Of a stretch of 64,000 nucleotides of DNA, positions 7,665 through 63,185 are shown piece after piece. The DNA is taken from NCBI RefSeq assembly GCF_040783975.1, contig NZ_CP160631.1:1426001-1490000 (forward strand), read 5' to 3'. The translations under genes and the position numbers were made by a program. This DNA comes from Pantoea sp. Ep11b. Lineage in GTDB: Bacteria > Pseudomonadota > Gammaproteobacteria > Enterobacterales > Enterobacteriaceae. The notes below the pieces were generated by a model. That model was given only the letters and a program-made list of their open reading frames with translations, was not told where the DNA came from and did not search any database. How positions within the stretch are numbered: position 1 is the stretch's first letter; each line of letters opens with the position of its first letter.

Positions 7665-8230
7665 TCTGTTTTACCCTCCTTTTTAATGCGCGTTTCTGCT
7701 GCGCGTCCCTGACCGGTTAAGCAGGCGTTATCTATTACCGGACAATATTATTTCGTGCTGCGACCAGAAACGTAATTTTTTCCAGACTGCAATGTTTGCT
7801 GTCAAATGCGAATTTGATGCTTAAAATAGTTTTCTTTGATATTGATCAACGCTTACCCATTGATGGATAAAATATCCGCGAATAGCGCGCCAGCACTGGC
7901 GTAAATGACGCAACTGGTTCATTTCTGGCCGGGCAGAAGCCGATTTGCGCTGAGATAAATCGGAGGGAGATGGCTGCTTTTTGATCTTTCGTGCTATGCC
8001 ATACGTTTAACGTGGAAAAAATGGGCTTGCGTCAGGAAAAAGAGGCGCGCATTAACGGTAAAAAACAGCCTGCTGAGGTTCATCAGTGCCGCTAACCACA
8101 AAAATTCCTCCGAATAAGAATTTTCTTTTTAACATGCACTCCCCTTCACGCTGAAAACGGAAAAGCGCCGCCTTTCCAGCAGGTTAGCCAACAGAACGGT
8201 TAACATCTCATCTTCCTCTTCTGGAGGGTT
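7665..8230. other. Long intergenic stretch ahead of the cspE leader ORF
   Basis: About 570 bases are lower in G+C than the surroundings, with no ORF longer than about 30 codons that has a convincing ribosome site. It presumably holds the cspE promoter and the start of a long 5' leader. No tRNA, palindrome of note or mobile-element end was seen. Confidence 0.5.
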
Positions 8231-8353
8231 ATGCAAGTCGAAAAGCAGGAAAGTGTGATGTGTGCACAGAAAGTCGATATTTATCACTTTTTCATCAAAT
8301 CGTACTGGACAAATCCCTCCGCAATTGCTGTACTAGACCCCGACACAGTTTAG
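8231..8353 (+). CDS. Candidate 40-residue leader peptide upstream of cspE
   Basis: The ORF starts at ATG 8231, four bases after a strong GGAGGG ribosome site, and ends at TAG 8353, 29 bases before cspE. It begins MQVEKQESVM and contains VDIYHFFIKSYW. It has no signal or clear membrane helix. The layout resembles the E. coli yobF-cspC operon, where a small protein gene precedes a constitutive cold-shock gene, but I see only a faint resemblance to YobF and do not claim homology. Either a small protein or a regulatory leader peptide is possible. Confidence 0.5.
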   Translation: MQVEKQESVMCAQKVDIYHFFIKSYWTNPSAIAVLDPDTV

Positions 8354-8382
8354 TGTCCATTTTTCATGTAAAGGTAATATAG

Positions 8383-8592
8383 ATGTCTAAGATCAAAGGT
8401 AACGTTAAGTGGTTTAATGAATCTAAAGGATTCGGTTTCATTACTCCTGAAGATGGCAGCAAAGATGTATTCGTACACTTCTCTGCAATCCAGAGCAACG
8501 GCTTCAAAACTCTGGCTGAAGGTCAGCGCGTTGAGTTTGAAATCACCGACGGCGCGAAAGGCCCATCTGCTGCTAACGTTATCAGTCTGTAA
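8383..8592 (+). CDS. cspE: Cold-shock-domain RNA-binding protein CspE
   Basis: The 69-residue product differs from E. coli CspE at only a few positions. RNP1 (KGFGFITPE) and RNP2 (VFVHFSAI) are intact. CspE is a nucleic-acid chaperone that melts RNA hairpins, acts as a transcription antiterminator and is made at normal temperature. The ribosome site is weak (AAAGGTAATATAG), and the gene is followed at once by an intrinsic terminator, so it ends its transcript. Confidence 0.95.
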
Positions 8593-8610
8593 GTTAACAG
8601 TCAGAATTCT

Positions 8611-8640
8611 AAAAACCCGCCTGATGGCGGGTTTTTTTAT
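8611..8640 (+). terminator. Intrinsic terminator of cspE
   Basis: AAAACCCGCC, a TGAT loop and GGCGGGTTTTTTT make a canonical rho-independent terminator 19 bases after the stop. Confidence 0.9.
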
Positions 8641-27264: not shown

Positions 27265-27276
27265 AACGAGCTCCGG

Positions 27277-27440
27277 AAAAAAAGGGTAGCTAAGCTACCC
27301 TGAAGATTGATGAACGGCGTTTTATTGCCTGATTCAGGGGAACGACCCGAATCAGTCTGTCTGTCCATGCCGCGGTTTCAGCAATCGAGAGGGCAGCCAG
27401 GCCGCCCTTGTTATACCCGTTCTCTTTCAGGCTGCGTCTG
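27277..27440 (-). ncRNA. sroC: Candidate SroC sponge RNA from the gltI-gltJ interval
   Basis: In E. coli and Salmonella the gltI 3' region is processed to SroC, an Hfq-binding RNA that titrates GcvB. Here the same 271-base gap ends with a classic intrinsic terminator: GGGTAGCT/AGCTACCC stem (27284-27300) with a T-run (27277-27283) just before gltJ. The 3' end is therefore well placed; the 5' processing site is a guess. I did not align the body to known SroC. Confidence 0.55.
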
Positions 27441-36100: not shown

Positions 36101-36175
36101 TGGCTGGGGTGCAGGGATTCGAACCCCGGAATGCTGGTATCAGAAACCAGTGCCTTACCGCTTGGCGACACCCCA
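36101..36175 (-). tRNA. glnX: tRNA-Gln (CTG), last gene of operon
   Basis: 75 bases including encoded CCA. The anticodon loop TTCTGAT is flanked by CTGGT/ACCAG; the T loop is GGTTCGAATCC. The sequence is identical to the next copy. Confidence 0.95.
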
Positions 36176-36202
36176 ATAGGTGTTAATCAAATTGTCTTTG
36201 TA

Positions 36203-36277
36203 TGGCTGGGGTGCAGGGATTCGAACCCCGGAATGCTGGTATCAGAAACCAGTGCCTTACCGCTTGGCGACACCCCA
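36203..36277 (-). tRNA. glnV: tRNA-Gln (CTG)
   Basis: Identical 75-base copy of the preceding tRNA, separated by 27 bases. E. coli also has a tandem glnV-glnX pair here. Confidence 0.95.
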
Positions 36278-36283
36278 ATTATA

Positions 36284-36360
36284 TGGTGGCTACGACGGGA
36301 ATCGAACCTGTGACCCCAGCATTATGAGTGCTGTGCTCTAACCAGCTGAGCTACGTAGCC
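36284..36360 (-). tRNA. metU: tRNA-Met (CAT), elongator type
   Basis: 77 bases with encoded CCA. It starts GGCTACGTAGC, anticodon CAT in TCATAAT. The G-C pairs of initiator tRNA are absent, and position corresponds to E. coli metU. Confidence 0.94.
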
Positions 36361-36382
36361 AAATTGTACTGCATTTCAATGA

Positions 36383-36457
36383 TGGCTGGGATACCTGGAT
36401 TCGAACCAGGGAATGCCGGTATCAAAAACCGGTGCCTTACCGCTTGGCGATATCCCA
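36383..36457 (-). tRNA. glnW: tRNA-Gln (TTG)
   Basis: 75 bases with encoded CCA. The anticodon loop TTTTGAT sits between CCGGT and ACCGG. Identical to the next copy. Confidence 0.95.
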
Positions 36458-36491
36458 TTCGTCCGTTCTCAGCATCGAGAATCATCAAAAT

Positions 36492-36566
36492 TGGCTGGGA
36501 TACCTGGATTCGAACCAGGGAATGCCGGTATCAAAAACCGGTGCCTTACCGCTTGGCGATATCCCA
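36492..36566 (-). tRNA. glnU: tRNA-Gln (TTG)
   Basis: Second identical 75-base copy, 34 bases from the first, in the place of E. coli glnU. Confidence 0.95.
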
Positions 36567-36588
36567 TCCACGCTGCCGAATAATGAAA

Positions 36589-36673
36589 TGGTGCGGGAGG
36601 CGAGACTTGAACTCGCACACCTTGCGGCGCCAGAACCTAAATCTGGTGCGTCTACCAATTTCGCCACTCCCGC
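36589..36673 (-). tRNA. leuW: tRNA-Leu (TAG)
   Basis: 85 bases with the long variable arm expected of leucine tRNAs. It starts GCGGGAGTGGCG and carries anticodon TAG (TTTAGGT loop). It reads CUN codons. Confidence 0.95.
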
Positions 36674-36683
36674 AAAAAAAAGA

Positions 36684-36760
36684 TGGTGGCTACGACGGGA
36701 ATCGAACCTGTGACCCCAGCATTATGAGTGCTGTGCTCTAACCAGCTGAGCTACGTAGCC
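36684..36760 (-). tRNA. metT: tRNA-Met (CAT), first gene of operon
   Basis: 77 bases, the same sequence as the second Met tRNA. It is promoter-proximal, matching E. coli metT. Confidence 0.94.
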
Positions 36761-54311: not shown

Positions 54312-55268
54312 ATGGGCAAAAAAATCCCCGTTGGAATCAGTGCATGCCTGCTCGGCGACAGTGTCAGGTTTGATGGTGGCCATAAACGTCTTACTTTTGC
54401 GACTCAGGATCTTACCCCATTTGTCCGCTTCGAACCGATCTGCCCGGAAATGGCGATCGGCCTGCCTACACCGCGTCCGGCGTTACGGCTGGTAAAACAG
54501 GATGATGACGAACTGCATCTCTGTTTCAGCAAAGATGGCGGTGAAGAGGTGACGCAGGAGATGCGTGCCTGGTCTGCCGAACGGGTGAAATCGCTGCACC
54601 ATCTGTCTGGCTATATCCTGTGCGCGAAATCGCCCAGCTGCGGCATGGAGCGGGTGCGGGTTTACGAGCCTGATAATAATAACAACCGCAAAGTCGGCAC
54701 CGGTATTTTTGCGGCGTTCCTGCAGCGTGAGATGCCCTGGCTGCCGCTGGAGGAGGATGGTCGTCTGCATGACCCGGCGCTGCGTGAGAATTTTATCGGC
54801 CGCATCTGCGCGCTGCATGAGTTCAACGAGATGTGGGAAAACGGCCTGACCCGTCACGGACTGATTGCTTTCCACAGCCGCTATAAGCTGATGATGCTGG
54901 CGCACTCGCAGGAAAAATATCGCGAACTGGGTCCGTTTGTTGCATCGATGAGCCAGTGGGAGTCGCTGGATGCCTTCGCTTTTGAGTACCGCAACCGCAT
55001 GATGGCGCTGATGTCCCGTCCGGCGTCACGTCGTAACCATACTAACGTGCTGATGCATGTGCAGGGCTACTTCCGCCGTCAGCTCAGTTCACCCCAGCGT
55101 CAGGAGCTGGCAACGCTGATTGACCGCTATCGTCAGGGGACGCAGCCGCTGCTGGCACCGATTACGATCCTCAAACACTACATGGCAGAGTATCCGCACC
55201 CCTGGCTGGCCCAGCAACGCTATTTCGATCCCTATCCCGAAGCCTTGTGCTTACGCTACGGACAGTAA
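54312..55268 (+). CDS. ybgA: YbgA with N-terminal DUF523 (TudS-like) and C-terminal DUF1722 domains
   Basis: The 318 residues form two domains. Residues about 1-155 are DUF523, the family that includes the thiouracil desulfidase TudS. It keeps three cysteines suited to hold a [4Fe-4S] cluster: ISACLLG, PICPEM and SPSCGM. Residues about 165-310 are DUF1722, with HSRYKLMMLAHSQEKYRELG and HVQGYFRRQLS. E. coli K-12 YbgA has only the DUF1722 part (about 169 residues). Thiouracil desulfuration is inferred from family. It ends 12 bases before phr, so the two are likely translated from one message. Confidence 0.88.
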   Translation: MGKKIPVGISACLLGDSVRFDGGHKRLTFATQDLTPFVRFEPICPEMAIGLPTPRPALRLVKQDDDELHLCFSKDGGEEVTQEMRAWSAERVKSLHHLSGYILCAKSPSCGMERVRVYEPDNNNNRKVGTGIFAAFLQREMPWLPLEEDGRLHDPALRENFIGRICALHEFNEMWENGLTRHGLIAFHSRYKLMMLAHSQEKYRELGPFVASMSQWESLDAFAFEYRNRMMALMSRPASRRNHTNVLMHVQGYFRRQLSSPQRQELATLIDRYRQGTQPLLAPITILKHYMAEYPHPWLAQQRYFDPYPEALCLRYGQ

Positions 55269-55280
55269 TTCAGGAGGCAT

Positions 55281-56705
55281 ATGACCACCCATCTGGTCTG
55301 GCTGCGTAACGATTTACGCATCAACGATAATCTTGCACTGCATGCCGCCTGCCGGGACAGCAAAGCAAAGGTGATGGCGCTTTTCCTTGCCACACCTGAG
55401 CAGTGGCAGCAGCATGATATGTCGCCAAAGCAGGCGGCATTTATTCATGCCAGCCTGACCGCGGTTCAGGATGCGCTGGCCGAACGCGGTATCGAACTGC
55501 ACTACAAAGCGTGTAAAGCTTTTGGCGACAGCGTCGATGCGCTGGTGACGTTCTGCGATGAGCACAAGGTCGATCAGCTTTTCTACAACTATCAGTATGA
55601 AGTGAACGAGCGTGAGCGCGACGCCGAGGCTGAAAAGCGGCTTAACGACGCCGGTGTCACCTGTCAGGGCTTTGATGACAGCCTGCTGCTGCCACCAGGC
55701 AGCGTGCAGAGCGGCGATCGCTCGATGTACAAGGTCTTTACGCCGTTCAGCAAAGCCTTCGTCCGCCGTCTGCAGCAGGGATTGCCGGAGTGCGTACCCG
55801 CACCGAAAGCGCGCGAGGGTGCGCCGCTGAAAACCACCCGGATCCCTGCCTTTGATTGCCCCTGTGAAGCGTTCGACGAGGAACGCTTTCCGGCAGGCGA
55901 AGAGGCCGCGCTGAAACGGCTGCGCCACTTCGCGGGCAAGCCGGTGGTCGATTATCCGGCTCAGCGCGACCTGCCGGCGCTGGATGCGACCAGCCGCCTG
56001 TCGGTCTATCTGTCGACTGGCGTGCTGTCGCCCCGTCAGTGTCTGCATCGTCTCCTGCACGAACATCCCGATGCGCTGGAAAATGGCCGTGCGTTCACCT
56101 GGCTGAATGAGCTGATCTGGCGCGAGTTTTACCGTCATCTGCTGGTCGCCTACCCGGCGCTGTGCCGCCATCAGCCGTTTGTTGACTGGACGCGCAACGT
56201 CGAATGGCAGAAAAACCCGGCCCATTTTGAGGCCTGGAAGGCGGGCAGGACCGGTTTCCCGATTGTGGATGCGGCCATGCGTCAGATGAATCAGCTGGGC
56301 TGGATGCACAATCGTCTGCGGATGATTACCGCCAGTTTCCTGGTCAAAGATCTGCTGATTGACTGGCGCGAAGGTGAACGCTACTTCATGCAGCAGCTGA
56401 TTGATGGGGATCTGGCGGCCAATAATGGTGGCTGGCAGTGGGCGGCCTCGACCGGCACGGACGCGGCTCCCTATTTCCGCATCTTTAATCCGACCACTCA
56501 GGGCGAACGCTTTGATCCGCAGGGAGAGTTTATCCGTCACTACCTGCCGGAGCTGGCCGAGGTTCCCGACAGCGATATTCATCAGCCGCATCAGTGGGCG
56601 GAGAAGCACAAGAAGAAACTCGATTATCCGGCACCAATCGTGGATCATAAGGCAGCCCGTAAAAAGACATTAGACGCCTTTGAGCGCGCGAAAAGCGCCG
56701 CCTGA
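55281..56705 (+). CDS. phrB: Deoxyribodipyrimidine photolyase PhrB
   Basis: The 474-residue product starts THLVWLRNDLRINDNLAL, the class I CPD photolyase N-terminal antenna domain, followed by a helical FAD domain with LNELIWREFYRHLL, FPIVDAAMRQMNQLGWMHNRLRM and DGDLAANNGGWQWAAS. It uses blue light to split cyclobutane pyrimidine dimers. AGGAGG lies just before the ATG. It lies between ybgA and ybgI as in E. coli. Confidence 0.97.
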   Translation: MTTHLVWLRNDLRINDNLALHAACRDSKAKVMALFLATPEQWQQHDMSPKQAAFIHASLTAVQDALAERGIELHYKACKAFGDSVDALVTFCDEHKVDQLFYNYQYEVNERERDAEAEKRLNDAGVTCQGFDDSLLLPPGSVQSGDRSMYKVFTPFSKAFVRRLQQGLPECVPAPKAREGAPLKTTRIPAFDCPCEAFDEERFPAGEEAALKRLRHFAGKPVVDYPAQRDLPALDATSRLSVYLSTGVLSPRQCLHRLLHEHPDALENGRAFTWLNELIWREFYRHLLVAYPALCRHQPFVDWTRNVEWQKNPAHFEAWKAGRTGFPIVDAAMRQMNQLGWMHNRLRMITASFLVKDLLIDWREGERYFMQQLIDGDLAANNGGWQWAASTGTDAAPYFRIFNPTTQGERFDPQGEFIRHYLPELAEVPDSDIHQPHQWAEKHKKKLDYPAPIVDHKAARKKTLDAFERAKSAA

Positions 56706-57510: not shown

Positions 57511-57539
57511 TTGACACATCTCTGTCACTTTCGCATAAC
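57511..57539 (+). promoter_or_regulatory. Predicted sigma-70 promoter of the pxp operon
   Basis: A perfect -35 TTGACA (57511-57516) and -10 CATAAC (57534-57539) are spaced 17 bases apart, about 90 bases upstream of pxpB. The leader in between is long enough for further control. Confidence 0.65.
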
Positions 57540-57627
57540 TATTTGCTTTAAGTCGATAAGCAAGGGGTCGATCCGGGCATCGGATCCGATCGGCCTGGCG
57601 CGATTTTAACCAGGCGGGAGGTGGCTG

Positions 57628-58284
57628 TTGCAACGAGCACGATGTTATTTATTGGGTGAACGCGCTGTCGTGCTGGAGCTGGAACCGCCGGTCTCGCTGG
57701 AAAGCCAGCAGCGTATCTGGGGGCTGACCCAGCGGCTGCACGCCTACGACAGCGTGCTGGAGGTGATCCCCGGCATGAACAACATCACCCTGCTCCTGCG
57801 TGACCCCCAGCAGAATGCGCTGGATGCCATCGAGCGGCTGCAGCGCTGGTGGGAAGAGAGCGAGGCGCAGCTGCCCGAGTCACGGCAGGTCGCAATCCCG
57901 GTGATCTACGGCGGCGAGGCGGGGCCCGATCTCGCGGTCGTGGCGGACCAGGCCGGGCTGACGCCCCCTCAGGTTGTTGAGCTGCACAGCAGCAGCGAGT
58001 ATGTGGTCTTCTTTATCGGCTTCCAGCCCGGATTTCCCTATCTTGGCGGGCTGGATCCGCGTCTTCACACGCCGCGCCGGGCGGAACCCAGAGTCACTGT
58101 CCCCGCCGGATCGGTGGGTATCGGCGGCAGCCAGACCGGCGTCTATCCGCTCGCCTCGCCGGGTGGCTGGCAGCTGATTGGCCAGACGCGCACGGCACTG
58201 TTTGATCCGCAACGGCAACCGCCCGTTCTGCTCCGTCCCGGCGACCGGGTCCGCTTTGTGCCACAGCAGGAGGGCGTATGTTAA
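57628..58284 (+). CDS. pxpB: 5-oxoprolinase subunit PxpB
   Basis: The start is TTG at 57628 with GGGAGGTG just upstream, and the 218 residues match E. coli PxpB (YbgJ) from MQRARCYL onward. Motifs include [20 protein letters not shown] and [27 protein letters not shown], shared with the KipI family. With PxpC and PxpA it cleaves 5-oxoproline (pyroglutamate) to glutamate using ATP. It overlaps pxpC by 7 bases. Confidence 0.94.
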
Positions 58285-59207
58285 ACATTCTGCGAGCCGG
58301 TCTGGCCGCCACCCTTCAGGATGCGGGACGATACGGCTGGCGCCAGTTCGGGATCAGTCCGTGCGGCGTTCTCGATCAGCCTGCGATGCTGACCGCCAAC
58401 ATGCTGGTGGGCAATGCCCCGGACAGCGCCGTGCTGGAGATCGTGCTCGGCCAGTTCAAAGCGGAGTTTACCCGCGACGGCTGGTTTGCGCTGACGGGCG
58501 CAGGGTGCCAGGCGCAGCTTGACGACAAGCCGGTCTGGACGGGCTGGCGCACCCCGGTGAAACGGGGTCAGGTCCTGTCGCTGGCGATGCCGCTGCGCGG
58601 GATGCGCAGCTATCTGGCGGTGCATGGCGGTTTTGCTATCCCGGCGATGCTGGATTCGGCCAGCACCGACCTGAAAGCGCAGTTTGGCGGGTTTCACGGA
58701 CGCACCCTGCGGGATGGCGATCAGATCCCGCTGGGGAAACCGACGCGTCAGTTCGACCGTCAGGCTGGGGTGCGGCAACTGCTGTGGGGCAACCGCATCC
58801 GCGCACTGCCTGGCCCGGAGTATCACGAATTCAGCCGCGAGGCGCAGCAGGCGTTCTGGCGTACCGGCTGGAAGCTCAGCCCGCAGAGTAACCGCATGGG
58901 TTACCGGCTGGAGGGGCGTAAGCTGAAACGCGAAAGCCCGCGTGAACTGCTGTCGCACGGCGTGATGCCGGGTGTGGTTCAGGTGCCGCCTAACGGGCAG
59001 CCCATCGTGCTGATGGCCGATGCGCAGACCACCGGCGGCTATCCGCGCATCGCCTCGGTTATCGAAGCCGATCTCTATCACCTGGCGCAAATCCGGCTGG
59101 GTGAGCCGATTCACTTTATTCACTGCACCCTGCCGGAAGCGATGCTGGCCCGTCAGCATCAGCAGCGCGCACTGGATCAGATGATGTGGGGACTCAATGA
59201 AGATTGA
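58278..59207 (+). CDS. pxpC: 5-oxoprolinase subunit PxpC
   Basis: The 309-residue KipA-like protein begins [30 protein letters not shown] and contains [30 protein letters not shown]. PxpB and PxpC together supply the ATP-dependent activation of 5-oxoproline. It overlaps both neighbours (7 bases with pxpB, 11 with pxpA), so the three subunits are translationally coupled. Confidence 0.94.
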
Positions 59208-59934
59208 TTTAAATGCTGACCTGGGCGAGGGCTGCGCCAGCGATCAGGCACTGCTGCAGCGGGTGAGTTCGGCCAATATCGCCTGCGGCTTTCACGCCGG
59301 GGATGCGCAGACCATGCTGCAGTCGGTGCGCTGGGCACAGGCTGCCGGTGTCGCGATTGGTGCGCATCCCGCCTTTCCCGATCGGGAGAACTTTGGCCGC
59401 AGCGCCATGCAGCTCCCGCCGGAAACAGTCTACGCCCAGATGATCTACCAGATCGGGGCACTGAAAGCGCTGGCGGAAAGCGAAGGCGCGCGGCTGGTTC
59501 ATGTTAAGCCGCACGGGATGCTGTACAACCAGGCCGCGGCCGATCCGGTGCTGGCTGACGCCATCGCCCGAGCCATCCGCGCGGTCGACAGCCAGCTGAT
59601 CCTGGTGGGGCTGGCCAACAGCGAATCGATTCGGGCCGCGGCGCATTACGGTTTATGCACCCGGGAAGAGGTCTTTGCCGACCGGGGCTATCTCCGTTCC
59701 GGCGCACTGGTGCCACGCAGTGAACCCGGTGCGCTGATTGAAGATGAGCAGCAGGCGATCGAGCAGACGCTGACGATGGTGCAGCAGGGCAGGGTAAAAA
59801 GCATCACAGGAGAATGGGTAGCGGTGAAGGCGCAGACCGTCTGCCTGCACGGTGACGGTGCGCATGCCCTGCAGTTTGCGCAGCGGTTATGTGAGGCGTT
59901 TGCCCGTCAGCAGATTCGCGTCACCAGTGACTGA
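59197..59934 (+). CDS. pxpA: 5-oxoprolinase subunit PxpA (LamB/YcsF family)
   Basis: The 245-residue product begins [16 protein letters not shown] and contains [15 protein letters not shown] and [12 protein letters not shown], the LamB/YcsF signature with metal-ligand His/Asp residues. PxpA completes ring opening in the 5-oxoprolinase complex. An intrinsic terminator begins 12 bases after its stop. Confidence 0.95.
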
Positions 59935-59946
59935 ATAACAACCTTT

Positions 59947-59969
59947 AACCCGGCCCGTGCCGGGTTTTT
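59947..59969 (+). terminator. Intrinsic terminator between pxpA and the DUF969 gene
   Basis: AACCCGGC/GCCGGGTT (8-bp stem, 4-base loop) runs into a stretch of Ts. It is only 17 bases before the next start codon, so downstream genes rely on read-through or a promoter inside pxpA. Confidence 0.85.
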
Positions 59970-59986
59970 CACTCTGAGGGAAAATC

Positions 59987-60715
59987 ATGGAGAGTGCCGT
60001 AAATCTCTGGCCATTACTGGGCATTGCCGCCATCGTGATCGGCTTCGTTCTGCGTTTTAATCCGGTGCTGGTGGTGATCATCGCCGGGTTCGTGACCGGG
60101 CTGGCCGCGCTGATGCCGCTGGCAGATATTCTGGAAAAGCTGGGCGCGGGCTTTCTGAACACCCGCAATCTGCCGCTGATCCTGCTGCTGCCGCTGGCGG
60201 TGATTGGCCTGCTGGAGCGTCACGGGCTGAAAGAGCGGGCTCAGGCGTGGATTGCGCAGATTAAAACGGCCACCGCAGGCCGTCTGCTGATCGTCTATCT
60301 GTTTGTACGCGAAATCACCGCCGCGCTGGGGCTGACCAGCCTCGGCGGCCATCCGCAGATGGTGCGTCCGCTGCTGGCGCCGATGGCGGAAGGGGCAACA
60401 GAGAATCGCTATGGCGAGATCACACCTGAGTTGCGCCACCGTCTGCGCGCGATGTCGGCGGCGACCGACAACGTCGGCCTGTTCTTTGGCGAGGATATCT
60501 TCGTCGCCTTTGGTGCGATTATCTTTATGCATAACTTCATGCAGGAGTCCGCCGGGATCCAGACCGAACCGTTGCACATCGCGTTGTGGGGGATCCCGAC
60601 CGCGGTGGCCGCGTTCCTGATCCACTCGGCTCGTCTGGTGCGACTGGACCGCCAGCTGGCGCGTGAGCTGCAGCGGCTGAACAGCCAGGCGATGAAGACC
60701 AAAGGAGGCGCATAA
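59987..60715 (+). CDS. DUF969 membrane protein, candidate transporter subunit
   Basis: The 242-residue product has about six to seven hydrophobic helices (LWPLLGIAAIVIGFVL, LVVIIAGFVTGLAALMPL, LPLILLLPLAVIGLL and others). LGLTSLGGHPQMVRP and MSAATDNVGLFFGEDIFVAFGAI match my memory of DUF969. Members occur next to DUF979 and pyroglutamyl peptidase genes in other bacteria. A transporter of pyroglutamate or its peptides is inferred from context. GAGGGA precedes the ATG, and the TAA overlaps the next ATG by one base. Confidence 0.82.
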   Translation: MESAVNLWPLLGIAAIVIGFVLRFNPVLVVIIAGFVTGLAALMPLADILEKLGAGFLNTRNLPLILLLPLAVIGLLERHGLKERAQAWIAQIKTATAGRLLIVYLFVREITAALGLTSLGGHPQMVRPLLAPMAEGATENRYGEITPELRHRLRAMSAATDNVGLFFGEDIFVAFGAIIFMHNFMQESAGIQTEPLHIALWGIPTAVAAFLIHSARLVRLDRQLARELQRLNSQAMKTKGGA

Positions 60716-61731
60716 TGTTCCAGCAACAGTATCTGATGTGGCTGGCAGGCATCATGCTGCTGGTGGTGGCGATCCTCTCCTGGCGCGATCGCGCGAATCC
60801 GCGCCGCCTGACGACCGGCCTGTTCTGGGCGCTGTATGGCCTGATATTCCTGATCGGTGACTGGACGGCAGATCTGCTGGGCCAGGGGCTGGGGTCGGCA
60901 GCGGCGGGCACCCGCACGCTGCACATCGCTGTCGGGGTCGTGGTGGTCATCATGGCGCTGATTGCGGGCCTGGGCGGCGTCCGGCTGGGACGCTATCATC
61001 AGCGCAGCGAAGAGGAGAGGCAGGCCAGCGCACAGCGTCTGCGCAATAAACTCTTCCTGCCCGCGCTGGCGATCCCGGTGGTCACCGTGGTCGGCGTGCT
61101 GGTGTTTAACCATATTCCCGGCCTGCAGGATTCGGTATTCGGACCCGGTAATCATGCAACGCTGGTGACGCTCTTTTCGATGATGGTCGGCTGTGTAGCG
61201 GGCTGGCTGGTGGCCCTGAAACTGACCCATGAAAAACCGGTGCAGTCGATGCAGGAGACCCGCCGCCTGCTGGATTCGATAGGCTGGGCCTTTATCCTGC
61301 CGCAGATCCTCGCCACCCTGGGGCTGCTGTTTACCAGCGCCGGTGTTGGCAGCGCGATTTCACATCTGACCCAGACCTGGCTGGCGGTGGACAATCGCCT
61401 GATTGCGGTCATCGTCTATGCCGTGGGCATGGCGCTGTTAACCATGATCATGGGCAACGCCTTCGCCGCCTTTCCGATTATCACCGCCGGCGTCGGCATC
61501 CCGATTCTGGTACTGCAGCACGGCGGCAACCCGGCGGTGATGGCGGCGATCGGCATGTTCTCCGGCTACTGTGGCACGCTGATGACGCCGATGGCGGCCA
61601 ACTTCAATATTGTCCCGGCGGCGCTGCTGGAACTGCCCAACCGAAACGCGGTGATCAGGGCTCAGATTCCGACCGGTGTGCTACTGTTAATCGTTAACAT
61701 TTTTCTGCTCTATTTCCTGATGTTTCTGTGA
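60715..61731 (+). CDS. DUF979 membrane protein, candidate transporter subunit
   Basis: This 338-residue polytopic protein has about nine to ten helices. NAFAAFPIITAGVGIPILV, GGNPAVMAAIGMFSGYCGTLMTPMAANFNIVPAALLEL fit the DUF979 family, and the GYCGTLMTPMAANFN-type loop resembles re-entrant substrate loops of ion-coupled carriers (similarity by eye only). The TAATG overlap with the DUF969 gene implies equal synthesis and a two-part complex. pcp follows 6 bases later. Confidence 0.82.
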   Translation: MFQQQYLMWLAGIMLLVVAILSWRDRANPRRLTTGLFWALYGLIFLIGDWTADLLGQGLGSAAAGTRTLHIAVGVVVVIMALIAGLGGVRLGRYHQRSEEERQASAQRLRNKLFLPALAIPVVTVVGVLVFNHIPGLQDSVFGPGNHATLVTLFSMMVGCVAGWLVALKLTHEKPVQSMQETRRLLDSIGWAFILPQILATLGLLFTSAGVGSAISHLTQTWLAVDNRLIAVIVYAVGMALLTMIMGNAFAAFPIITAGVGIPILVLQHGGNPAVMAAIGMFSGYCGTLMTPMAANFNIVPAALLELPNRNAVIRAQIPTGVLLLIVNIFLLYFLMFL

Positions 61732-61737
61732 GGCAGC

Positions 61738-62385
61738 ATGAAAACGGTCCTGATAACAGCCTTTGAACCTTTTGGCGGTGAAACGATTAATCCTTCATGG
61801 GAAGCGGTGCGGACGCTGGAGGGCAAAGCGATCGGCGGGGCGAAGATCGTCATCCGCCAGTTGCCCGTGATCTTCCGTGAGGTCCTCGGCGTGCTGAACC
61901 AGGCGCTGGAGGAGATCAGACCGGATGCGGTGCTGTCGGTAGGGCAGGCGGGCGGTCGCAGCGACATTACCGTCGAGCGTATCGGTATTAATGTCGACGA
62001 CGCCCGTATCCCGGATAACGCCGGGCATCAGCCCGTCGATGAACCCGTGGTTGCCGGCGGTCCGGCAGCCTATTTTTCGCGGCTGCCGATCAAAGCGATT
62101 GTCGCCGCGGTGCGGGAGGCGGGCATTCCGGCGTCGGTGTCGCAGACGGCGGGCACCTTTACCTGTAACCGGGTGATGTATGGCCTGCTGCACTGGCTTC
62201 AGCAGCAGGAGAGCCCGGCGCGGGGCGGCTTTATCCATATCCCTTATCTGCCTGAACAGGCGGCGCAGCACCCCGGTGCGCCGAGTATGGCGCTGGCGAC
62301 CATTGTTCAGGCGCTGGAGATTGCTGTTCGGGTCACGCTGGAGACCGGTGACGATATTAAACAGGCTGGCGGTGCCACCCACTAA
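61738..62385 (+). CDS. pcp: Pyrrolidone-carboxylate (pyroglutamyl) peptidase I
   Basis: The product is 215 residues, the usual length. The cysteine peptidase C15 triad is visible: Glu in [20 protein letters not shown], Cys in [14 protein letters not shown] and His in [12 protein letters not shown]. It frees N-terminal pyroglutamate from peptides in the cytoplasm, supplying the substrate of PxpABC. E. coli K-12 lacks it. It is tightly packed between the DUF979 gene and nei. Confidence 0.95.
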
Positions 62386-62396
62386 GAGGATGAAGG

Positions 62397-63185
62397 ATGC
62401 CTGAAGGACCGGAAATCCGCCGCGTGGCGGATAAACTCGAAGCTGCCATTGTGGGGCAGCCGTTAACGGAAGCGTGGTTTGCGTTTCCACAGCTCAAAAC
62501 CTATGAACCGGCATTAATTGGTGAGCAGGTGCAGGCCATTGAAACGCGGGGCAAGGCGCTGCTGACACATTTCAGCAACGGCCTGACGCTCTACAGCCAT
62601 AACCAGCTTTATGGCATCTGGCGCATTGTAAAACCCGACACCGAACTCAATACCACCCGTCAGTTACGGGTACGGCTGGCGACAGCAGATAAAGCGATTC
62701 TGCTCTACAGCGCCTCCGATATTGAACTGCTTAACGCCGATACCCTGGGGGCGCACCCGTTCCTGAATCGCATCGGGCCGGATGTGCTGAGCAGTGCCCT
62801 GACCGTTGAAGAGGTGCGGGAGCGGCTGCTGTCGCCCCGTTTCCGGCGTCGTCAGTTCAGCGGTCTGCTGCTGGACCAGGCGTTTCTGGCCGGGCTGGGT
62901 AACTACCTGCGCGCCGAAATTCTCTGGCTGGCGCAGCTGCTGCCGCACCACCGGGCACAGGATCTGAGTGAAGATCAGCTGACTGCATTCAGCGAGGCGC
63001 TGCTGTCGGTGCCGCGGCACGCCTACCGGATGCGCGGCACCATGAAGAAATATCATGAGGAAGCGGCATTTCAGTTTGAGGTGTTTCATCGGCAGGGCAA
63101 AAAATGCCGGCGCTGTGGCACGGTCGTCGAGAAGGGCACGCTGTCGTCCCGGCCGTTCTACTGGTGTCCGGGGTGTCAGCGATAA
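62397..63185 (+). CDS. nei: Endonuclease VIII (DNA glycosylase/AP lyase) Nei
   Basis: The 262-residue product begins (M)[14 protein letters not shown]; Pro2 and Glu3 are the catalytic residues. It has an H2TH region with the [12 protein letters not shown] motif and a zinc finger [25 protein letters not shown]. It removes oxidised pyrimidines from DNA. It starts 11 bases after pcp, as the last gene of the run. Confidence 0.96.

Follow-up and report, generated by a model that had tools for sequence, protein, structure and literature searches.

Genes of the pxpBCA-DUF969-DUF979-pcp locus

The window, a stretch of 64,000 nucleotides from contig NZ_CP160631.1 of Pantoea sp. Ep11b, contained six consecutive genes between positions 57628 and 62385, all on the + strand. 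These were pxpB, pxpC and pxpA for the 5-oxoprolinase PxpABC, genes for two membrane proteins of the families DUF969 and DUF979, and pcp for pyroglutamyl-peptidase I. The DUF969/DUF979 pair, a proposed carrier of 5-oxoproline (pyroglutamate), is the main subject here. Features are given by window position:

57511..57516, + strand: TTGACA box upstream of pxpB, a putative -35 element read in the sequence, with CATAAC about 17 bases on
57628..58284, + strand: pxpB, 5-oxoprolinase subunit B, TTG start (TIGR00370, 305.9 bits, cut-off 145.55)
58278..59207, + strand: pxpC, 5-oxoprolinase subunit C (NF045499, 569.6 bits, cut-off 500)
59197..59934, + strand: pxpA, 5-oxoprolinase subunit A (NF003812, 428.3 bits, cut-off 378)
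59949..59969, + strand: terminator-like hairpin in the pxpA-DUF969 spacer (stem 59949-59964, T run 59965-59969)
59987..60715, + strand: DUF969 membrane protein, proposed 5-oxoproline transporter subunit, E169/D170 subtype (PF06149, 4.5e-89)
60715..61731, + strand: DUF979 membrane protein, proposed 5-oxoproline transporter subunit with a one-repeat fold like that of the ion-transporter superfamily (Pfam, 1.8e-117)
61738..62385, + strand: pcp, pyroglutamyl-peptidase I (NF009676, 324.5 bits, cut-off 199; TIGR00504, 296.7 bits, cut-off 201.75)
62397..63185, + strand: presumed nei, endonuclease VIII, an open reading frame starting 11 bases after pcp

All six genes passed their family cut-offs, confirming the content, order and common strand given in the initial annotation. 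PxpB, PxpC and PxpA each scored above the NCBIfam equivalog cut-off and their genes overlapped (pxpB/pxpC by 7 bases, pxpC/pxpA by 11 bases), identifying them as PxpABC. The DUF969 protein scored 298.1 bits against PF06149 (gathering cut-off 32; profile positions 2-215 of 216 covered) and the DUF979 protein 392.4 bits against PF06166 (gathering cut-off 26; positions 2-307 of 307 covered). The overlapping TAATG previously noted between these two genes is real, lying at 60713-60717 with an overlap of 1 base. Gaps of 52 bases and 6 bases separated pxpA from DUF969 and DUF979 from pcp. In Pcp, the motifs ERIGIN, TFTCN and HIPYLP started at residues 80, 140 and 167, placing the protein among the pyroglutamyl-peptidases I (C15), whose catalytic residues are taken to be a Glu/Cys/His triad. 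The name nei for the frame at 62397-63185 is presumed from its position. The stretch originally singled out began at 57511, which is the first base of the TTGACA box and not a gene start. A promoter scan, whose rule demands a second hexamer ending in T, did not list this box.

Profile searches of the source genome returned a single match each for DUF979, PxpA and Pcp, one Hydantoinase_B match (frame length not listed), and no DUF2891 match. Among the rows of the DUF979 tree, the closest sequence was from Candidatus Pantoea gossypiicola (93% identity).

In the one Escherichia coli record that was read the order was ybgI-pxpB-pxpC-pxpA-nei, with no annotation between pxpA and nei, whereas in the window DUF969, DUF979 and pcp intervene between these two genes. 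A pxpC-pxpA match was present in 5374 of 5426 E. coli genomes and a DUF969-DUF979 match in 0 of 20,395 records; one E. coli control genome had no Pcp match. The earlier statement that E. coli holds only pxpBCA and nei here was thus borne out.

Co-occurrence and neighborhoods of the DUF969/DUF979 pair

Survey 1 consisted of profile searches for DUF979, PxpA, Pcp and Hydantoinase_B in 396 Pseudomonadota genomes, with counts of 50, 193, 79 (43 stronger than 1e-60) and 177, respectively. Only Pcp matches better than 1e-60 (strong Pcp) were counted in co-occurrence, and DUF979 matches below the cut-off were dropped (the second matches of G119 and G165 here, and G487 in survey 3). A Hydantoinase_B match in a frame of at least about 1000 residues, among the matches listed, was taken as a single-chain oxoprolinase of putative substrate; one such long row (G369) has an internal stop. 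The p-values of this survey ignore kinship.

PxpA was found in 36 of the 50 DUF979 genomes and a long single-chain hydantoinase-type frame in at least 15. Taking these two non-homologous types together, a 5-oxoprolinase candidate was present, among the matches listed, in at least 49 of 50 DUF979 genomes vs 215 of 346 others (p 8.8e-9); the sole DUF979 genome with neither type among those matches was G011. The long single-chain type alone was not enriched (15/50 vs 80/346, p 0.19, again among the matches listed). Strong Pcp occurred in 31 of 50 DUF979 genomes vs 12 of 346 others (p 2.0e-23). Nineteen DUF979 genomes had no strong Pcp, and all 19 encoded a 5-oxoprolinase candidate, which points to free 5-oxoproline as the cargo.

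Survey 2 covered 51 Pseudomonadota loci, each read with flanks of about 7 kb around the pair (less at contig ends), and the window as the 52nd. DUF969 adjoined DUF979 in all 52. Pcp was found in 30 loci, PxpA in 22, a hydantoinase-type oxoprolinase in six and DUF2891 in 20. Pairs lying mostly away from pcp and pxp would have spoken against the module, and this is not what was seen: pcp or pxpA was within about 7 kb in 33 of 52 loci. The other 19 loci all had DUF2891, and six of these also held a single-chain hydantoinase-type oxoprolinase. These 19 pairs away from pxp and pcp favor a reading in which the pair carries some other cargo (e.g., a metal or glutamine) and its linkage is incidental. 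Against this, every one of the 52 loci had Pcp, PxpA, a hydantoinase-type oxoprolinase, DUF2891 or several of these in its neighborhood, and the genome-level link to oxoprolinase candidates counts against it as well.

A second, biased set was drawn up by resemblance to the window family, taking the best 80 of at least 589 relatives. In these 80 loci DUF969 was found in 80, Pcp in 60, PxpA in 61, and Pcp or PxpA nearby in 75. The remaining five loci were from Pseudomonas, all with PxpA elsewhere in the genome. Altogether, 14 genomes of the second set were searched for PxpA and 12 were positive. The two negatives, L139 and L150 (Duganella and Massilia), carried E-type DUF969-DUF979-pcp clusters with no PxpA match; the hydantoinase type was not searched there.

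In survey 3, DUF979 was above cut-off in 13 of 229 Bacillota genomes. Twelve neighborhoods were read, with DUF969 beside DUF979 in 12 and Pcp beside DUF979 in 11; in the thirteenth genome (G396) match coordinates placed Pcp next to DUF979, giving 12 of 13 overall. Pcp was present in all 13 genomes and PxpB in six, and seven had neither PxpB nor Hydantoinase_B. DUF969-DUF979-pcp clusters at L163-L166, L170 and L172 were in genomes without a PxpB or Hydantoinase_B match.

Pcp lies close to the pair in 30 of the 52 Pseudomonadota loci and next to it in 12 of 13 Bacillota loci, also in genomes where no 5-oxoprolinase was found. This proximity would fit import of pyroglutamyl peptides, which Pcp would cut inside the cell, leaving the released 5-oxoproline for PxpABC. 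The 19 DUF979 genomes without strong Pcp, each with an oxoprolinase candidate, speak against peptides. The uptake cargo had initially been given as pyroglutamate or pyroglutamyl peptides; the first half of that proposal stands and the second is less likely. Overall, the surveys support 5-oxoproline itself as the probable cargo of the pair.

Predicted fold of DUF979 and the proposed role of the pair in 5-oxoproline uptake

In structure comparison the DUF979 model resembled INDY- and TRAP-type carriers, placing its predicted fold within the ion-transporter superfamily. Residues 210-336 of the model superposed on residues 114-240 of VcINDY (root-mean-square deviation 3.2 over 120 residues), and a helix break at G247-N248 fell near what is taken to be the tip of the SNT hairpin of VcINDY. 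VcINDY holds both repeats within one chain, whereas DUF979 of the window has one repeat; the second half would come from DUF969 or from a second DUF979. VcINDY is a Na+/dicarboxylate symporter (4f35, 6ol0), and the structural relatives of DUF979 mostly carry small organic or inorganic anions, which does not favor peptide import. The entry title of one structural relative, MtrF, describes it as an antimetabolite efflux pump.

DUF969 gave only weak profile matches to the ion-transporter fold. Profile comparisons of DUF969 with DUF979 and with DcuC were weak (best E 0.007, probability 5.5%), and the comparison of DUF969 with DUF979 for repeat kinship found no similarity. Long frames over both genes (e.g., L051, L045, L061, L075) were considered as natural DUF969-DUF979 fusions and rejected; their reading frames differ, and they were put down to overlap in G+C-rich sequence.

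That the pair has no assigned function, as the initial annotation had it, is out of date. Citing Niehaus 2017 among others, a 2026 paper (PMC12795558) states that DUF969/DUF979 has been suggested to carry 5-oxoproline on account of its co-occurrence with oxoprolinase. The same paper identifies Campylobacter jejuni cj0552-4 as DUF969, DUF979 and DUF2891 genes, and reports that a cj0552-4 mutant, which judged by its name removes all three jointly, lost growth on 5-oxoproline; its growth with glutamine or glutamate was not significantly affected. A metabolic model enters the pair as a pyroglutamate transporter (PMC6904757, in part). Passages of a 2024 paper (PMC11467057) assign DUF979 to the ion-transporter clan CL0182, predict with confidence a heterodimer of the Clostridioides difficile pair (Q186N2/Q186N4; interface predicted TM-score ~0.9), and suggest a heteromeric ancestral form of the carrier. 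A further passage (PMC10040529) links nearby clusters of hydantoinase B/oxoprolinase, DUF969, DUF979 and DUF2891 with halotolerance in Pontixanthobacter and Allopontixanthobacter. The C. jejuni and C. difficile pairs have the same two Pfam families as the window, adjacent and tied to 5-oxoproline metabolism. The third gene differs: in C. jejuni it is DUF2891, whereas the window pair lies between pxpA and pcp. The operon is genuine and well formed, an ordinary member of a known arrangement, and its carrier assignment is already published. Published passages on Lactococcus plasmids, SaoC, Geobacillus, Streptococcus pneumoniae expression, C. jejuni biofilms and a Yersinia pestis SNP table had no bearing on the locus.

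Two kinds of 5-oxoproline uptake protein described as unrelated served as comparison, both treated in PMC13274462. PxpT of Corynebacterium glutamicum and YcsG of Bacillus subtilis are pxp-linked genes for 5-oxoproline uptake, like the window pair; unlike it, they are single-chain NRAMP-like proteins of the APC superfamily. Neither window protein, nor any of the 32 members of each alignment, matched an NRAMP family in Pfam, and NRAMP membership was rejected. The TRAP receptors DctP6 and DctP7 of Bordetella pertussis bind 5-oxoproline, as judged from ligand structures, and share the ligand proposed here; the membrane parts of TRAP systems are distantly related in fold to DUF979. A TRAP system needs a periplasmic binding protein, whereas the pair in the window has pxpA and pcp as its immediate neighbors and does not fit this class.

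The locus is likely a 5-oxoproline scavenging operon in which DUF969 and DUF979 form one heteromeric carrier of ion-transporter type for uptake of free 5-oxoproline. Each protein would supply half of the fold that INDY-like carriers hold in one chain, and the heteromer would bring free 5-oxoproline through the inner membrane into the cell, probably with an ion gradient as the driving force. For Pantoea sp. Ep11b we infer the heterodimer, ion coupling, direction and substrate. Within the family, Pcp is established to free 5-oxoproline from peptides in the cytosol; here it would cut pyroglutamyl residues off peptides inside the cell and add to the 5-oxoproline pool. PxpABC would open the 5-oxoproline ring with ATP to give glutamate, an activity established for the family and described in PMC13274462. 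The pathway logic of the initial annotation, with Pcp releasing and Pxp converting pyroglutamate in one module, was judged right.

The C. jejuni growth defect bears on the competing readings. Loss of growth on free 5-oxoproline argues against import of pyroglutamyl peptides, which is unlikely in view of the anion-carrying relatives and the genomes without strong Pcp. That growth with glutamine and glutamate was not significantly altered speaks against a different cargo, which is rated highly improbable even with the NRAMP-like PxpT and YcsG being pxp-linked in other bacteria. Export of 5-oxoproline as a waste product of Pcp and of spontaneous cyclization has the efflux title of MtrF on its side; the need of C. 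jejuni for the cluster during growth on 5-oxoproline runs against it.

Variation among loci and its implications

DUF969 position 169 was E in 48 and Q in 16 of 64 sequences. Q was found in each of the 12 survey-3 rows from Bacillota, in L058, L068 and L070, and singly in L039. All of these but L039 (i.e., L058, L068, L070 and L163-L174; 15 rows, each from a genome with Pcp) formed one branch of the DUF979 tree with support 98. In the second set, 80 of 80 sequences had E/D at 169/170. Six of these pairs were from Bacillota (Brevibacillus, Paenibacillus, Pelosinus and a Sporomusaceae genome), with pxpA in each locus, so the E/Q split does not simply follow phylum. This subtype split of DUF969 is a new point of the analysis.

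Among the matches listed, an oxoprolinase candidate was present in 46 of 46 E-type survey-1 genomes vs 7 of 15 Q-clade genomes (p 2.2e-6, kinship ignored). The eight Q-clade genomes in which no 5-oxoprolinase was found (G011 without PxpA, seven Bacillota without PxpB, and no Hydantoinase_B found in any) all had Pcp, adjoining the pair in seven. These eight genomes favor export; the window subtype, occurring in survey 1 only in genomes with oxoprolinase candidates, where export would waste substrate, goes the other way, and export is rated quite unlikely, below peptide import. Uptake of free 5-oxoproline remains the preferred reading.

Genomes without oxoprolinase also differed at DUF969 positions 23, 25, 161, 170, 201, 205, 213 and 216 and at DUF979 positions 152, 191 and 328. 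So many further differing sites, as any separate branch would show, argue against a special meaning of position 169. Invariant in all rows and groups were DUF979 N248, C286, T288, N298 and Q317 and DUF969 E77, Y104, R108, R127 and N162; these kept sites would argue for one shared cargo across subtypes. The subtypes may differ in coupling or direction, with the E/Q site as the marker.

Near the pair, Pcp (30 of 52 loci) and DUF2891 (20 of 52) alternated, with both only in L052. This alternation is a further new point of the analysis; single cases of DUF2891 near the pair are in print, namely cj0552-4 (PMC12795558, in part) and Pontixanthobacter/Allopontixanthobacter (PMC10040529, in part). DUF2891 without pcp was found in L034, L041, L045, L047, L050, L051, L053, L055, L060-L062, L065, L066, L074, L075, L077, L078, L081 and L082. 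The DUF979 tree needed two changes of the DUF2891 label, and a single DUF2891 clade was not rejected (approximately unbiased [AU] test leaving out three long rows, p 0.588). Repeated swapping of Pcp and DUF2891 was rejected on these grounds, and the alternation may go back to one old exchange. DUF2891 (PF11199) has strongly conserved motifs around HPIFYGSFDWHS and HLDGLNLSRAW. Solved structures exist (8ieu/8iev); a literature search for the paper behind them found none, and the published passages naming DUF2891 give no function for it. Cluster 'c6', an apparent opposite-strand neighbor in 10 loci, was rejected: the two members that were scanned matched no Pfam family, and its position coincides with DUF2891 on the opposite strand. 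A more speculative scheme would make the pair an old two-protein carrier whose DUF969 motif marks two modes of working. The E/D subtype would carry 5-oxoproline inward in step with a 5-oxoprolinase, and the Q subtype, beside Pcp in mostly Gram-positive genomes, would have lost its coupling acids and export or exchange the 5-oxoproline freed by Pcp. DUF2891, standing in for Pcp in another branch, would be an unrecognized enzyme making or freeing 5-oxoproline. This scheme is rated unlikely.

The terminator-like hairpin of the 52-base pxpA-DUF969 spacer, a third new point, reads CCCGGC-CCGT-GCCGGG followed by TTTTT. The folding energy of the spacer was -16.7 kcal/mol (z -2.31), a value reached by 3 of 200 shuffles. 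Among 47 spacers between pxpA and DUF969 in the second set, three were too short to test and nine held a hairpin followed by a T run, eight of these nine being Erwiniaceae-type. In a set of 12 Erwiniaceae-type loci, assembled once the pattern was known, ten had the hairpin with differing stems, vs ~0.5 expected from an approximate dinucleotide shuffle. L085, named Enterobacter, was grouped with L084 for its near-identical spacer. L105 (Rosenbergiella), presumably also of the Erwiniaceae, is a further likely member outside the 12. No hairpin was found in L090 (Pantoea), L067 or L105, nor in the Serratia, Yersinia, Klebsiella, Raoultella and Citrobacter records of the 47-spacer comparison; L063 had a weak one. 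With such a hairpin in the spacer, one module need not equal one equal transcript, and in the Erwiniaceae-type group the carrier genes may be expressed at a lower level than pxpBCA.

Elsewhere in the window, Rfam scans gave seven tRNA matches (36104-36760, - strand; three pairs with identical scores), a cspA thermoregulator (8224-8640, + strand) and sroC RNA (27270-27421, - strand). A 318-residue open reading frame (54312-55268, + strand) lies beside a photolyase-like gene (55281-56705); it presumably resembles YbgA (DUF523/DUF1722).

Two leads stand out: the alternation between Pcp and DUF2891, and the division of DUF969 into E and Q subtypes. That Pcp and DUF2891 almost never occur together near the pair sets DUF2891 in a wider 5-oxoproline context. 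5-Oxoproline forms spontaneously from glutamine and glutamate, so a dedicated carrier would matter for nitrogen use by plant- and gut-associated bacteria. E. coli has the 5-oxoprolinase but, in the genomes searched, not the carrier, which makes the locus suitable for a compact test. Should DUF979 depend on DUF969 for its other half, the two proteins would represent a living intermediate between carriers with one repeat and carriers with two, as PMC11467057 already suggests.

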